Positions 4,493 to 10,683 of a stretch of 64,000 bases of DNA are shown here, one piece after another; position 1 is the first letter of the stretch; each line of letters starts with the position of its first letter. The DNA is from Anaerolineae bacterium. Its GTDB lineage: Bacteria > Chloroflexota > Anaerolineae > Aggregatilineales > UBA3940. The stretch lies in contig JAFGOY010000013.1 in assembly GCA_016926255.1 (NCBI GenBank), forward strand, positions 66,139-130,138, written 5' to 3'. The translations under genes and the position numbers were made by a program. The notes under the pieces are model-generated. The model saw nothing but the letters and a program-made list of their open reading frames with translations, was not told the origin of the DNA and ran no database searches.

Positions 4493-5305
4493 ATGTATGT
4501 AGACCCATCGGCGGTTACACTGCCAATTGCCATACTCGCGGGATTGATATCATTCGTATCGCCGTGCGTCCTCCCGCTGGTCCCAGCGTATATCGGCTAC
4601 CTGACCGGGCAGGCGGCGAACACAGCCAGCAGTTCGCTGGCAGCGGAAGAATCGACGGAGACGGCATCCCCCTCACGGTGGACAGTTTTCCTGCACGGGG
4701 TATTCTTCGTCATTGGATTTTCACTGGTTTTCGTGCTGCTCGGCATCGGGGCAGGGGCAATCGGGCAGTTAGGGCGACAGTTCCTCCGGGTCACCGACTG
4801 GGTGATACGGATCGGCGGGGTACTGATCATCATCCTGGGCCTGCATATCATGGGCGTCATCCGAATCCCGTTTCTGTACTACGATACACGGAAGCAGACC
4901 AAACCCCGCCCGGAACTGGGATACGCAGGATCGTTATTCATGGGTATCACTTTCTCGGCGGGCTGGTCACCATGCCTGGGGCCGATCCTGGCGGCGATGC
5001 TGACACTGGGCCTGAGCACCGGATCGGCGGGGCGGGCTGCTCTATTATTGACTGCCTACGCAGCAGGACTGGGAATCCCGTTCCTGCTGACCGCACTCCT
5101 GCTCGACCGGGCGACCGGGCTGCTGCGCAGCCTAAAAAAGCACATGCGGGTGATCGAGATCGTCAGCGGGCTGCTGATGATCGCCATCGGCGTGATCATC
5201 GCTTCGGGGCTGCTCCAGCGGCTCTTAGGCCCTCTCGCAGCGGGGAGCGATCTTTCGCTGAAGCTCGACGAGTGGCTGGTCAGGTTGATTGGAAGTGGCG
5301 AATAA
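4493..5305 (+). CDS. ccdA: CcdA-family thiol:disulfide membrane transporter
   Basis: A 270-residue integral membrane protein with about six transmembrane helices, the normal size of CcdA (DsbD transmembrane core). The first helix carries LAGLISFVSPCVLPLVPAYIGYLTG, the conserved PCxLPLxPxY motif, and a second cysteine lies in AGWSPCLGPILAA. These two cysteines shuttle electrons from cytoplasmic thioredoxin to extracytoplasmic thiol proteins, in cytochrome c maturation or envelope redox repair. The next gene, 73 bases on, contains a glutaredoxin-like domain, so the two may form a redox pair. No other cytochrome c maturation genes are visible. Confidence 0.95.
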   Translation: MYVDPSAVTLPIAILAGLISFVSPCVLPLVPAYIGYLTGQAANTASSSLAAEESTETASPSRWTVFLHGVFFVIGFSLVFVLLGIGAGAIGQLGRQFLRVTDWVIRIGGVLIIILGLHIMGVIRIPFLYYDTRKQTKPRPELGYAGSLFMGITFSAGWSPCLGPILAAMLTLGLSTGSAGRAALLLTAYAAGLGIPFLLTALLLDRATGLLRSLKKHMRVIEIVSGLLMIAIGVIIASGLLQRLLGPLAAGSDLSLKLDEWLVRLIGSGE

Positions 5306-5378: not shown

Positions 5379-6410
5379 ATGACTGTAGACATAACCTTTT
5401 TTTCAAAACCAGACTGCGACCCGTGCGATGTAATCCGAAGTGAGCTTGAAGAGATCGGGAAGACGATTCCGGTCAACGTGACCGAGATCGACGTGACCGC
5501 CGAGGAAGCGGCCTACGGAGATTACACCGACAGCGTCCCGATAATACGGATCGGGGCGCAGCGGCTCGAAGCCCCGATCGACACCGAGGACTTAAAAGTC
5601 GCGCTGGTGACAGCTGCCGCAGAGCAGGCAGCGTCGACAAAAGAACCGGTGACTGGAAACAAGCGTAAAGTCGTGATTGCGCTGGACAGAGGCATTTTGT
5701 GGTTTTCACGCCGCTGGGTGATCCTGCTGTCGATCCTATCGCTGTTGTACGCGGGTATCCCATTCCTGGCCCCGGTCGCCATCGAAACCGGGCATCCGAT
5801 GATCGCCAGGGCGATCTACCGACTGTACAGCCCGCTCTGCCACCAATTCGCGTTTCGATCCTGGTTTTTGTACGGGGAACAGGCCGCCTATCCGCGAGAG
5901 GCGGCGGGGGTGGAGGGCGGCAGTTTCGAGGACTACGCCAGCCGCGATCAATTCTTCGACGGGGTCGACGTCCATACGCTCGACGATGACCTGATCTACG
6001 CGGCCAAGCAGTTCGTGGGCAATGAAGAGATGGGATGGAAGGTCGCGTTTTGTGAACGCGACGTCGCCATCTACACCGCGATAGCCCTGTCCGGGTTCCT
6101 GTTCATGATCCTGAAGCGGGCAGGAGTCAAAGTGCCTTATCTACCTTTCTGGGCCTACGTGCTGATCGCGCTGGTGCCGATGGGGATCGACGGGGTGAGC
6201 CAGTTCTTCGCCAATCCACCGTTCAACGGGTTCGGATTGGCCTTCTACCCGATCAGAGAGAGCACCCCACTCCTGCGGGTGATCACCGGGGCGCTGTTCG
6301 GGCTGGGGAACGCCTGGTTAGCCATTCCATATGTCGACGACAGCATGGAAGAAACCGAAGAACTGGTACTCAACAAGCTAAAAAAGGCCGGAAAACTGCC
6401 TTTTAGCTAG
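5379..6410 (+). CDS. Glutaredoxin-like domain fused to a DUF2085 membrane domain
   Basis: A 343-residue fusion. Residues 1-80 form a glutaredoxin/thioredoxin-like domain with the CDPC motif at residues 13-16 and a SVPIIRIGAQRL segment with the expected cis-proline. A charged linker leads to about four transmembrane helices. The membrane half shows DUF2085 marks: SPLCHQFAFRSWFLYGEQ after the first helix, and AFCERDVAIYTAIALSGFLF later. DUF2085 function is unknown; its conserved Cys/His/Arg residues face one side of the membrane and could bind metal or react with thiols. Its place right after ccdA suggests a membrane redox function. That role is inference; the domain order is seen directly. Confidence 0.85.
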   Translation: MTVDITFFSKPDCDPCDVIRSELEEIGKTIPVNVTEIDVTAEEAAYGDYTDSVPIIRIGAQRLEAPIDTEDLKVALVTAAAEQAASTKEPVTGNKRKVVIALDRGILWFSRRWVILLSILSLLYAGIPFLAPVAIETGHPMIARAIYRLYSPLCHQFAFRSWFLYGEQAAYPREAAGVEGGSFEDYASRDQFFDGVDVHTLDDDLIYAAKQFVGNEEMGWKVAFCERDVAIYTAIALSGFLFMILKRAGVKVPYLPFWAYVLIALVPMGIDGVSQFFANPPFNGFGLAFYPIRESTPLLRVITGALFGLGNAWLAIPYVDDSMEETEELVLNKLKKAGKLPFS

Positions 6411-6639: not shown

Positions 6640-6834
6640 ATGAGCATAGAATTTTACGATGTCAAGATTCGTGAGAAGGTCAAAATCGACAAAGGCAAGA
6701 TCACGAAGATCAAGATCACTCAGAAGAATGGCCAGGTTCGGTATGCTTTCCGCGCGATGACCGATGACGGTCGGAAACTGACCAAGTTCTGCAGCAAAGC
6801 AGACTGGGATGCCATGGACGTACCTCAAGGATAG
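6640..6834 (+). CDS. Small basic protein of unknown function, 64 residues
   Basis: A short gene with GGAAAGGGCG just upstream of its ATG and a strong terminator (6858-6884) just downstream, so it is a well-bounded single-gene unit. The product is lysine-rich: VKIREKVKIDKGKITKIKIT in the first third, then QVRYAFRAMTDDGRKLTKFCSK, and a single cysteine. The alternating pattern suggests a small beta-sheet protein; there is no signal peptide or membrane segment. I do not recognise a characterised family. The regular codon use and own terminator favour a real gene. Confidence 0.7.
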   Translation: MSIEFYDVKIREKVKIDKGKITKIKITQKNGQVRYAFRAMTDDGRKLTKFCSKADWDAMDVPQG

Positions 6835-6857: not shown

Positions 6858-6884
6858 GCCCCATCGACAAGATGGGGCTTTTTT
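6858..6884 (+). terminator. Terminator after the 64-aa gene
   Basis: GCCCCATC-gacaa-GATGGGGC hairpin followed by TTTTTT, 24 bases past the stop at 6834. Confidence 0.93.
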
Positions 6885-7181
6885 GATCCACCCCGCGAAC
6901 CGCCAGAATCGGGCAGCTTAAAAAAGCCTTAACGATCACATAATGGTGACTTAACCCTGGAATGCAAGTATGTTACTGGCCATCCACGTTGTGTTGTACC
7001 TCGTGTGTGTGGACAGGGCAGCGGGGGGCTGCCCTGTCCGATGATTTCAGCAGCCAAACGCCTACCCGTATCAGTTTTTGAGAGTGGCACGCTATCCTCG
7101 CCTCATTTATACTACTCCTCAGCAACCGATTCAGTATTATCCGGCAACTAAATCAGCAGAAGAAACTAATCGAGGTATGCC
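6885..7181. other. Intergenic region before the pseudokinase gene
   Basis: About 300 bases with no supportable gene. It holds a perfect 12-bp inverted repeat (7011-7039) and a TATACT -10-like hexamer near 7110 without a convincing -35. The 5' half is AT-richer than the surrounding genes, as expected of a promoter region. Confidence 0.45.
7011..7039. other. Perfect 12-bp inverted repeat with G5 loop
   Basis: GGACAGGGCAGC (7011-7022), a GGGGG loop, then GCTGCCCTGTCC (7028-7039). No T-run follows on the plus strand, so it is not an ordinary terminator. It lies about 140 bases upstream of the pseudokinase gene and could be a leader hairpin or protein-binding site. Confidence 0.55.
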
Positions 7182-9653
7182 GTGTCAGACGATCTCATAG
7201 GACGGCACCTGGGACAGTACGAAATCGTCGAGTTCATCGGCGGGGACGATCTGACCGAGGTCTACAGGGCAGTATATCACCCAGAAGATGACCCATTGGA
7301 GCGGGAAGCATCGGTACTGGTCAAGATTGTTGGCCGACAGCAGGGGGAAGACCCGGTCTTCAATACACGCTTCCGGCGCGAAGCGCGGGCCATCGCCGGG
7401 CTGCGACATCCGAACATCGTCCGTATCCATGACTTCGGTCATGCCGAAAACGGTCACTATGTGATCATGGACTATATCGACGGGGAAACGCTGGCCGACG
7501 TGATGGCGCAGGCGCAGCGGAGAGAACGCCGTCTCGACATGGAAGATATCACGTTCATCATCCGGCAGATCGCCTCGGCGCTTGACCACGCCCACAGCCA
7601 GGGCGTTGTCCACCGGGCGGTCAACCCGCACACGATCATCATCACCCGGAGCGGGCAGGCAATCCTGGCCGACTATGGCCTGTCACTGCTTTACAGCCGG
7701 GACCGTGAAGGCGAGAACCCGGACGTGATCGCCAGCCCAGCCGAATACATGGCCCCGGAACTGGTGTACGATCCACGCGCCGCGACCCCGGCCAGCGATG
7801 TTTACTCGCTGGGCGTGATTCTCTACCAGCTTCTGACCGGGCAACTTCCTTTCGAGTTTGGCTCAGATATCGATATGGCGCTGCAATCGCTGGGGGAGAC
7901 CGCCCCCGATCCGCGCCTGCTCAACCCGGACATATCGGTCGATATTGCGGCGGTCACCTTGAAAGCGCTGGCGAAAGAACCAAAAGAACGATTCTTACGG
8001 GCGATGAAGATGGCCGCTGCCTTAGAGCGGGCCGCTTACCCCGATCCGCGCGCGATGCGGGCATACAAACGTCACCAGCAGCAGGAAACAATCGCATCAC
8101 GGCCAACCGCCGAACGGCTGGTCGTCCACCGGGGGCCGCCTCGACGCGAAGAACGCCGCCGGATGAAGCAGATGCGGGGCGATTACAAGGGAATTCAGCA
8201 AGAATCTGGGGTGGAAGGCGTGCGCATCCGGCGTCCGCTGCGGCTGGTGCCGGTCAACTGGCTGCGCTGGGCGGCCTTCGCAACGGCGGTGATCGTGATC
8301 CTGATTGCAGGAGCGTTCGTACTGGATGCGCTGGGCATCCTCCGGCTGCCAATGGGGAGCAGCCAGCTAACAGTCGCACAGATGACGGCAACGGCCCAGG
8401 CGACGATCACGCCAACGATGACACCGGAACCCCCGACGGCGACGCCGCCCCCTACCCTGACCCCGCTGCCGACCCCGACTCCGCTGGCAGTGGCCGAATC
8501 GACGCCGGTTCCGGCGCTCGAATATGCGCTGCTTGGCGCAGGCTCCAGCGCTTTCCGGGTTGAAGACGGCGCGGCGATCCAGTTCGTTCCGGCGGGAACC
8601 TTCATGATGGGTTCCGACGACCCGGAAAGGAACGAGGACGCCCACCCACAGCACGCAGTGATGCTGAATGATTACTGGATCGACCAGACGGAAGTAACCA
8701 ACGATCAATACGCATTGTGCATTGAAGCCGATCTGTGCCAGCCACCTATCTCAACGCAGTACTACAGTGACCCGAACCGGGGCGATCAGCCGGTGGTGTA
8801 TGTGACCTACACGTATGCGGTCACCTACTGCCTGTGGCTGTCGAGCGTCACCGGGCAGGCCATCGGGCTGCCAACCGAGGCCCAGTGGGAAAAAGCGGCG
8901 ACATGGGACCCGGACGCTGAAGAAGCTCGCCTGTATCCCTGGGGCAACGAACCGCCGGACGGGACGCTACTGCGCTTCCTCGACGGCCCGGTGTGGGGAA
9001 CTGCAAATGTCGGCAGCTACCCGGACGGGGCGAGCGCCTACGGCGTTTTCGATATGGCGGGGAACGTCTGGGAGTGGACGACTGACTGGTATGGGGCCTT
9101 CACCTACCAGCGGAACGGCATCCCGGTCGATCCGACCGGCCCGGCGAGCGGCAACCAGCGAATCAACCGGGGCGGCGGCTGGGCACACAGCGCGACTTAC
9201 ATGCCAAGCGCGATCCGCAACGCAGCCAACCCGGATGCATCCGGGAACGATCTTGGCTTCCGCTGCGCGATGGCCGGAAACCGCCCGCCGCAGTCGAGCG
9301 GGATCGTGATGACACCGCTCGACCTGGTTGCGGAACTCAACAAGCGGCTGGATGCGGAACTGGCTTCGCTTGAAGGCGACGTACGGCTGATCGACGACTG
9401 GCGGGCCGCCCTCGACGTTTTGAACTGGTCACTGGTGCGGGATGACGACGCGCAGGCATTGACGACGATCAACGACGGGCTGGCGGCGATCAAGGTTCAG
9501 CGGCGAGACAACCAGATATCGGCGAGACTGGCCCAGCAGCTTGAGGGCGGCTTACAGTGGATCAAATTGCAGATCGAGCCGGTCGAAGAGGCAGGCAACG
9601 CTGAGGCAGAAGCCGGGGAGCCGACGGAAGGTGAAGCGGGCGAACCAGAGTAG
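7182..9653 (+). CDS. Membrane-anchored pseudokinase with C-terminal SUMF1/FGE-like domain
   Basis: An 823-residue protein starting at GTG 7182 after GAGGT. Residues 13-280 have the Hanks-type Ser/Thr kinase fold: K48 (VLVK), E67 of helix C, D164-Y-G in place of DFG, APE at 191-193 and SDVYSLGVILYQLLTGQLPFE. The catalytic loop, normally HRDxKPxN, reads HRAVNPHTI (144-152): catalytic Asp, Lys and Asn are all replaced, and the Gly-rich loop is degenerate. Phosphotransfer is therefore unlikely. A transmembrane helix (about 363-385) and a Pro/Thr-rich linker lead to a SUMF1/FGE-like domain (about 465-697; MVPAGTF-type start, GNVWEWTTDWYG, GFRCAM). Its active-site segment RGGGWAHSATY lacks the catalytic cysteines. 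A helical tail follows. The fold calls are firm; loss of both activities is inferred from residues. Confidence 0.92.
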   Translation: MSDDLIGRHLGQYEIVEFIGGDDLTEVYRAVYHPEDDPLEREASVLVKIVGRQQGEDPVFNTRFRREARAIAGLRHPNIVRIHDFGHAENGHYVIMDYIDGETLADVMAQAQRRERRLDMEDITFIIRQIASALDHAHSQGVVHRAVNPHTIIITRSGQAILADYGLSLLYSRDREGENPDVIASPAEYMAPELVYDPRAATPASDVYSLGVILYQLLTGQLPFEFGSDIDMALQSLGETAPDPRLLNPDISVDIAAVTLKALAKEPKERFLRAMKMAAALERAAYPDPRAMRAYKRHQQQETIASRPTAERLVVHRGPPRREERRRMKQMRGDYKGIQQESGVEGVRIRRPLRLVPVNWLRWAAFATAVIVILIAGAFVLDALGILRLPMGSSQLTVAQMTATAQATITPTMTPEPPTATPPPTLTPLPTPTPLAVAESTPVPALEYALLGAGSSAFRVEDGAAIQFVPAGTFMMGSDDPERNEDAHPQHAVMLNDYWIDQTEVTNDQYALCIEADLCQPPISTQYYSDPNRGDQPVVYVTYTYAVTYCLWLSSVTGQAIGLPTEAQWEKAATWDPDAEEARLYPWGNEPPDGTLLRFLDGPVWGTANVGSYPDGASAYGVFDMAGNVWEWTTDWYGAFTYQRNGIPVDPTGPASGNQRINRGGGWAHSATYMPSAIRNAANPDASGNDLGFRCAMAGNRPPQSSGIVMTPLDLVAELNKRLDAELASLEGDVRLIDDWRAALDVLNWSLVRDDDAQALTTINDGLAAIKVQRRDNQISARLAQQLEGGLQWIKLQIEPVEEAGNAEAEAGEPTEGEAGEPE

Positions 9654-10590
9654 ATCGAAGAACCTGCACATTATTGCTGCCTGCGTAATCCTGCTTGTGG
9701 TTACAGCAGGTGTGATCACTGTGCTTGTGCAGAAAGCCCACCCGGAGGAGAAGCAGGGTCGCATTACGCCAGTTCACGCCGAGCATGGCAGCTACCTGCA
9801 ATACATTCCGTCGAATGTGGCATCAACCCCGGACATCATCATTCTGGCGCATGGCACGCCTGACAAGGGAAAGAGTGCCTTCGACATGGCCGAAATCTAC
9901 ATCGGCCACTGGGTAGATTTTGCCGAAGAGACCGGCGCTATTGTCCTGTCGGTTGCATTCGACCAGCACAACTACGGTTCCATCGAAGGCGGCGACCTGG
10001 GTGGATACCGCTCTTTGATGGGGAGAACCATCAACGCGGACGCTTTCGTAGAGGAAATTGTCGATTATTACCGCAGCGCGTTTGCCATCGACGATGAGCG
10101 CTTTTATCTCTACGGGCATTCCGCCGGAGGGCAGTTTGTGGCACGCTACAGCGTCACTCACCCGGAACGGGTAAAGGGTGCGGTGATCAGCGCCGCCGGT
10201 CGATACCCCTACCCCGATCCGTCGGTGGCGTGGCCCTTTGGCATGGGCCGTCTGCAGACCCCATTTCAGTGGGACGAGAACGAACCCGAAATCATGCTGG
10301 ATATCCAGCCTGACCCCAGCGGATGGGTCGAGGCAGCGGGCCTGCCGGTAGTCGTCGTGGTTGGTTTGAACGATACAGAACCACAGTACGCCGATCCCGG
10401 TCAACAGGGATCGACCCGGCTGCGAAATGGATCAGCCTGGGTGCGGGCGATGAACGCCTATGCAGAGGAGAACAGCGGGGAGGGCAACATGCGATTTTCG
10501 GTGGTGGCGGGCCGTGGACACAGCGCGATTGGAATCATGCCGTTCTGCCAGGAGGAGCTAAAAGCGATTCTGCTTCAGGCTGAAACTTAA
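9631..10590 (+). CDS. Membrane-anchored alpha/beta hydrolase
   Basis: A 319-residue protein with an N-terminal membrane anchor (IIAACVILLVVTAGVITVLV) and an extracytoplasmic alpha/beta-hydrolase domain. The nucleophile elbow is GHSAGGQF, the oxyanion region HGTPDKGKSAF, and a C-terminal catalytic histidine candidate lies in GRGHSAIG. The overall pattern resembles polyhydroxybutyrate-depolymerase/feruloyl-esterase-like (LpqC-type) hydrolases, but the substrate is unknown. The GTG at 9631 is the likely start: it has GGGGAG about 10 bases upstream and overlaps the end of the pseudokinase gene by 23 bases, implying translational coupling. An in-frame TTG at 9541 would give an implausible basic leader. 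Confidence 0.82.
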   Translation: MKRANQSRSKNLHIIAACVILLVVTAGVITVLVQKAHPEEKQGRITPVHAEHGSYLQYIPSNVASTPDIIILAHGTPDKGKSAFDMAEIYIGHWVDFAEETGAIVLSVAFDQHNYGSIEGGDLGGYRSLMGRTINADAFVEEIVDYYRSAFAIDDERFYLYGHSAGGQFVARYSVTHPERVKGAVISAAGRYPYPDPSVAWPFGMGRLQTPFQWDENEPEIMLDIQPDPSGWVEAAGLPVVVVVGLNDTEPQYADPGQQGSTRLRNGSAWVRAMNAYAEENSGEGNMRFSVVAGRGHSAIGIMPFCQEELKAILLQAET

Positions 10591-10644: not shown

Positions 10645-10683
10645 AAAAAAGTCCCGCCATTCTCCGGCGGGACTTTTATTTTT
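10645..10683. terminator. Bidirectional terminator between convergent genes
   Basis: AAAAGTCCCGCC-attctcc-GGCGGGACTTTT (10647-10677) with T-rich flanks on both strands. It serves the hydrolase gene (plus) and the GlsB-like gene (minus, stop at 10682). Confidence 0.9.

Follow-up and report, generated by a model that had tools for sequence, protein, structure and literature searches.

Receptor kinases of the PknB type sense the cell wall. Pseudokinases are defined by the replacement of at least one of three residues, the β3 Lys, the HRD Asp and the DFG Asp (PMC12599244). Membrane pseudokinases described in a 2025 review include EssB/YukC, MviN (ActPs3) and ActPs2, among others, and bacterial pseudokinases are there considered largely unexplored experimentally (PMC12599244). 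The text of this review makes no mention of SUMF1/FGE fusions or of Chloroflexi, and our literature search for SUMF1-linked kinases or Chloroflexota pseudokinases returned nothing relevant.

Here we analyse a gene located at positions 7182–9653 of the window, a stretch of genomic DNA of 64,000 nucleotides, to which all coordinates below refer unless a contig or locus is named. We consider it fairly probable that this gene encodes a single-pass membrane receptor whose kinase domain has turned into a non-catalytic, possibly nucleotide-binding, signalling module. The main value of the locus lies in the series of orthologues that leads from intact to altered active sites.

Domain architecture and active-site residues

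The open reading frame, on the plus strand like all features within it, runs without interruption for 823 residues from a GTG start codon preceded by GAGG. From the N- to the C-terminus, the protein is composed of a Hanks-type kinase domain, one transmembrane helix, a Pro/Thr-rich linker, a SUMF1/FGE domain and a tail of four helices predicted with low confidence. The kinase domain (residues 10–284; 7209–8033) is well defined in Pfam (PF00069, 128.8 bits against a cut-off of 31.7, E = 3e-37), and its best match among solved structures is PknB from M. tuberculosis (1mru, E = 1.3e-39). It is followed by a basic juxtamembrane segment with 19 Lys/Arg against 8 Asp/Glu (residues 286–361; 8037–8264), the transmembrane helix at approximately residues 365–387 (8274–8342; hydropathy peak of 2.7) and the extracytoplasmic linker (residues 388–467; 8343–8582). 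Since the helix comes after a Lys/Arg-rich stretch, the kinase domain is predicted to be inside and the SUMF1 domain outside. The protein has the layout of kinase–SUMF1 membrane receptors, in which a single transmembrane helix separates the two domains. Pfam and hydropathy thus agree with an earlier note on this DNA, which had described a kinase domain joined across the membrane to a SUMF1-like domain.

The HRDxKPxN catalytic loop of active Hanks-type Ser/Thr kinases is absent. In the alignment with PknB, HRDVKPAN corresponds to HRAVNPHT (residues 144–151; 7611–7634), where the catalytic Asp is replaced by Ala, the loop Lys by Asn and the Mg-binding Asn by Thr; this bears out the same three changes named in the earlier note. 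The glycine-rich loop GFGGMSEV is degraded to GGDDLTEV (residues 20–27; 7239–7262), the intact-site orthologues having SSGGMAEV or ASGGMAEV. GTAQYLSPE corresponds to SPAEYMAPE (residues 185–193; 7734–7760), in which the GT of the P+1 loop is gone and APE is present. The β3 Lys48 (7323–7325) and Glu67 of αC are kept, and DYG is found at the position of DFG (residues 164–166; 7671–7679), keeping the metal-binding Asp164. The replacement of the HRD Asp by Ala, also observed in the sister genus (genome G005), places the protein within the published definition of a pseudokinase (PMC12599244). The predicted structure of the kinase part, obtained from a two-sequence alignment, has a mean pLDDT of 39.9 and supports no claim.

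Among 31 kinase domains aligned from the same genome (G000), only this protein lacks the Asp, Lys and Asn together; the remaining ones have RD, or RN in two cases, each with the loop Lys and Asn. The two domains with HRN for HRD, L147 (G000:C55:124588-125334) and L155 (G000:C43:38317-39072; αC Glu replaced by Val), are candidate pseudokinases outside the present family. Another kinase, L146 (G000:C67:35880-36617), has an intact HRDLKPSN loop and an Arg aligned to the β3 Lys. The genome, of 4.6 Mb, is very rich in both folds, with 32 SUMF1 and 35 kinase matches. The fusion as such is ordinary there, since at L149/L023 a kinase with an intact HRDVKPQN loop shares one open frame of 634 residues with a SUMF1 match.

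The SUMF1 domain (residues 468–696; 8583–9269) matches FGE-sulfatase in Pfam with 167.8 bits (E = 5e-49). An AlphaFold model of this domain and the tail (mean pLDDT of 66) matched FGE structures in Foldseek with E-values down to 9e-18, and Pfam, the alignment with FGE and Foldseek all indicate a SUMF1/FGE fold. None of the seven orthologues, this protein among them, has a Cys at the positions of the catalytic Cys336 and Cys341 of human FGE, and the lack of the catalytic pair is a trait of the whole orthologous group. The cysteines needed for formylglycine formation are thus missing, as had been claimed, but the description of the domain as cysteine-less was literally wrong: C513, C519, C550 and C695 are shared by the seven orthologues without exception. 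C550 belongs to a YCLW motif and C695 to a GFRC motif, both also found in FGE. In human FGE, the cysteines at the YCxW and GFRC positions form a structural disulfide. The C-terminal tail (residues 712–798; 9315–9575), modelled as four helices with a pLDDT of ~50–63, is weakly conserved among the orthologues; a sequence search of the PDB gave no confident match and placed it in no known family.

Orthologues, loss of catalytic residues and selection

Full-length orthologues were found in seven of the nine genomes of the family, including our own, the relatives being 45–51% identical to it. None was found in the 145 other genomes searched in the order (E ≤ 1e-90), and a pattern-based search of contigs yielded no further full-length orthologues, its hits being for the most part SUMF1 domains of other proteins. 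The nearest named relatives of the SUMF1 domain are from Chloroflexi MAGs.

The orthologues from G001 (L031) and G007 (L036) equal our protein in domain order, length and tail (46–51% identity), but differ from it in having a complete active site, with HRDVKPGN, SGGM, VAIK, DFG and GTPEYM. The other five come from four genera. Each of them is without the loop Lys, the Asn and the P+1 GT and has an abnormal glycine loop, which extends the pseudokinase reading beyond a single protein. Besides our own, these have the loops HGDVRPSH (G006), HRDLTPSH (G003), HRDLAPHH (G004) and HQAISSGS (G005), and the β3 Lys is replaced by Arg in G003 and G004 and by Thr in G005. Glu67 and Asp164 are present in all five and Lys48 in two. 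The HRD Asp is absent only from our protein and from G005, with Ala in both, and is kept in G003, G004 and G006. Being common to two genera, the change to Ala is not a single-genome event with HRD retained in the relatives, a case in which the pseudokinase reading was to be given up. G004 also encodes a kinase–SUMF1 paralogue with an intact HRDIKPSN loop (L037, G004:C336), where one stop codon after SUMF1 is followed by a long open stretch.

The full-length tree groups the five altered proteins in a clade that excludes G001 and G007 (100/98). When the catalytic motifs are masked, support for this clade drops to 53/95, and concatenated species marker genes are compatible both with the clade and with its absence (AU p = 0.195). 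As to the number of losses behind the altered proteins, the full-length tree favours one, the masked tree weakens this, and the species markers favour neither one nor several. Independent marker genes place our genome next to G005 as its sister (97/99), so the replacement of the HRD Asp by Ala was probably a single event in their ancestor. An order of loss in which the other motifs changed before the HRD Asp is plausible. We tentatively suggest, as a scenario somewhat short of probable, that a kinase–SUMF1 receptor passed stepwise within one family from an active kinase to a retained pseudokinase. The Asn, the loop Lys, the glycine loop and the P+1 GT would have gone before the HRD Asp, whose loss is confined to one sister pair, with selection maintained on the receptor and its kinase fold.

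The altered kinase domains are under purifying selection, as seen in one pair of relatives. Between G003 and G004, ω is 0.053 for the kinase domain, 0.037 for SUMF1, 0.085 for the juxtamembrane segment and 0.20 for the tail (Nei–Gojobori, dS 0.7–1.8); these values rest on this pair, as dS is saturated or nearly so in the others, including those of the G000 lineage. In the kinase domain, 69 columns do not vary across the seven orthologues and 88 do not vary among the five altered ones.

These data bear on the alternative that selection acts on an outer SUMF1 receptor and that the kinase domain is an expendable leftover from which residues disappear randomly. Different residues have changed in each lineage, with Thr or Arg for Lys48 and HGD, HQA or HRA for HRD, and the kinase branches are longer relative to those of SUMF1 in most altered lineages, as such decay would have it. 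However, the domain is whole and uninterrupted in five of five altered proteins, which share the 88 invariant columns, the two catalytic framework residues Glu67 and Asp164 and, in two cases, Lys48. Together with the ω of ~0.05 in G003/G004, this makes random decay an unlikely explanation, and we continue to favour a retained, non-catalytic signalling module.

Genomic context

Two syntenic genes precede the pseudokinase gene on the same strand. The first (4493–5305) encodes what we take, from its sequence, to be a CcdA-like membrane protein, and the second (5379–6410) a glutaredoxin-like and DUF2085 membrane protein identified by Pfam. Both precede the orthologue in our genome, G004 and G005, and the glutaredoxin–DUF2085 gene alone was seen in G003 and G006. 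A PRPP synthetase gene is located beyond the pseudokinase gene in our genome, G004 and G005. Three tandem genes for YkuD L,D-transpeptidases are found upstream in G001 (L120:11867-15312), G003 (L123:5081-8543) and G004 (L124:2562-6023). In G007, a YkuD gene adjoins CcdA, and the contig that carries the orthologue itself is short and has no neighbours in common with the other loci. Orthology across the divide between intact and altered proteins is supported by the YkuD–kinase order that G001, with its intact site, has in common with G003 and G004, and by the synteny of CcdA, glutaredoxin–DUF2085 and PRPP synthetase.

The YkuD neighbours in the relatives hint at a role connected to the cell wall. 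This link is weak for our genome, because here, as in G005 and G006, the L,D-transpeptidase trio is absent from the locus as far as the contigs extend. In our genome, the only YkuD copies in tandem are diverged ones on contig C15.

Directly upstream of the pseudokinase gene is an open reading frame of 64 residues (6640–6834, plus strand), which has no homologue at the syntenic loci. It is followed by a terminator-like hairpin with a T-run (6858–6884, plus strand), which lies between the upstream genes and the pseudokinase gene. A promoter-like site is found at 7084–7113 on the plus strand, with a match to the consensus only (9/12). At its 3′ end, the gene overlaps by 23 bases with that of a membrane-anchored α/β hydrolase (9631–10590, plus strand), an overlap that had been reported before and holds given a hydrolase start at GTG 9631. 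The two genes probably form a unit with one transcript, which a strong bidirectional terminator-like hairpin (10647–10677) would close. The proposal that the hydrolase acts in the same pathway is not supported: none of the neighbourhoods compared has a homologue next to the orthologue, which speaks against a conserved link.

Proposed function and relation to known systems

We propose that the receptor originated from an active kinase–SUMF1 receptor of the kind still encoded by two relatives. Outside the cell, the SUMF1-fold domain and the helical tail would bind a ligand, most likely a component of the cell envelope. The SUMF1 domain would serve as a C-type-lectin-like scaffold without FGE catalysis, probably held by disulfides. 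Inside, the kinase fold would transfer no phosphate to protein, and might still bind a nucleotide by means of Lys48, Glu67 and Asp164. The state of the outer part could be relayed by conformation or dimerization, with the domain scaffolding or allosterically steering a partner, which may be one of the cell's other Hanks-type kinases (~30). At the level of sequence, the non-catalytic reading is supported by the changes in the Asp, the loop Lys, the Asn, the glycine loop and the P+1 GT, and by the retention of the fold and of the Lys/Glu/Asp framework. The anatomy also fits the two-sided binding device envisaged in the earlier note, an idea that remains an inference. Residual activity is possible in G003, G004 and G006, since the HRD Asp is kept there.

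In our own protein, the retention of Lys48 and Asp164 makes some unusual chemistry conceivable. An active atypical enzyme, whether a weak kinase or another ATP-dependent transferase, might work through these two residues in the manner of SelO or SidJ, and Glu67 is present as well. SidJ and SelO are both pseudokinases that put ATP to another use, glutamylation and AMPylation, respectively (PMC12599244). However, the Mg-binding Asn, the glycine loop and the P+1 GT are gone too, and neither a SelO-like nor a SidJ-like family came up in the Pfam and NCBIfam scans. The orthologues also differ in which residues have changed, G005 lacking even the β3 Lys, which argues against one conserved chemistry and leaves an enzyme of this kind distinctly improbable.

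Similarly slight is the chance that the domain is an inert substrate or decoy, phosphorylated by an active partner kinase and recruiting phospho-binding proteins. Kinases of the PknB type are phosphorylated in the juxtamembrane region, and by analogy the basic juxtamembrane segment of our protein could carry acceptor sites; ~30 intact Hanks-type kinases are encoded in the genome. No partner kinase was seen beside the gene in the loci compared, though, and the juxtamembrane segment is poorly conserved (21–33% identity between genera). An artefact of sequencing, assembly or reading frame can be practically dismissed, even in a draft genome of 82 contigs: the frame is intact, the flanks are conserved and align cleanly with the orthologues, the loop codons (CAC CGG GCG GTC AAC CCG CAC ACG) are several bases off any coding of HRDxKPxN, and the sister genus has Ala at the HRD Asp too.

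For a receptor that became non-catalytic, the orthologues offer a natural series, with intact, partly altered and strongly altered active sites of one full-length receptor in neighbouring genera. The stepwise reading, if true, would make this series a record of how a bacterial receptor becomes non-catalytic. The series also allows one to ask which residues go first and whether nucleotide binding and signalling outlast phosphotransfer. As a control of identical architecture, the orthologue of G001 with its intact site is ready to hand.

Our protein has the kinase domain, basic juxtamembrane segment, single transmembrane helix and extracytoplasmic part of the Hanks-type receptor kinases PknB and StkP, but differs from them in its lost catalytic residues and in the lack of PASTA repeats. 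The Pfam scan detects no PASTA domain in it, and the NCBIfam model of PASTA-containing Stk1/PknB kinases (NF033483) scores 242.6 bits against a cut-off of 450, with a match limited to residues 11–381. With EssB/YukC, MviN (ActPs3) and ActPs2 it shares a non-catalytic kinase fold linked to a transmembrane region; in contrast to these, it retains the β3 Lys and a DFG-type Asp. Two pseudokinase families, ActPs2 and CP1, had defining features open to comparison, and neither fits it. ActPs2 has Arg for the β3 Lys, HRN for HRD and a deletion of DFG, and is set apart by this description from a protein with Lys48, HRA and DYG. CP1 pseudokinases have no transmembrane region and a linked COG3899 domain, whereas here a transmembrane helix is predicted and SUMF1 is the only other domain found.

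On the outer side, the domain resembles the formylglycine-generating enzyme in its fold and in the two cysteines of the YCxW and GFRC motifs, but not in the catalytic Cys pair. Targets of diversity-generating retroelements with an FGE/CLec fold likewise use an FGE-type fold for proposed binding and not for catalysis (PMC10907252); our SUMF1 domain differs from these in the tail that follows it. A single partial reverse-transcriptase match was found in our genome, on another contig than the pseudokinase gene.
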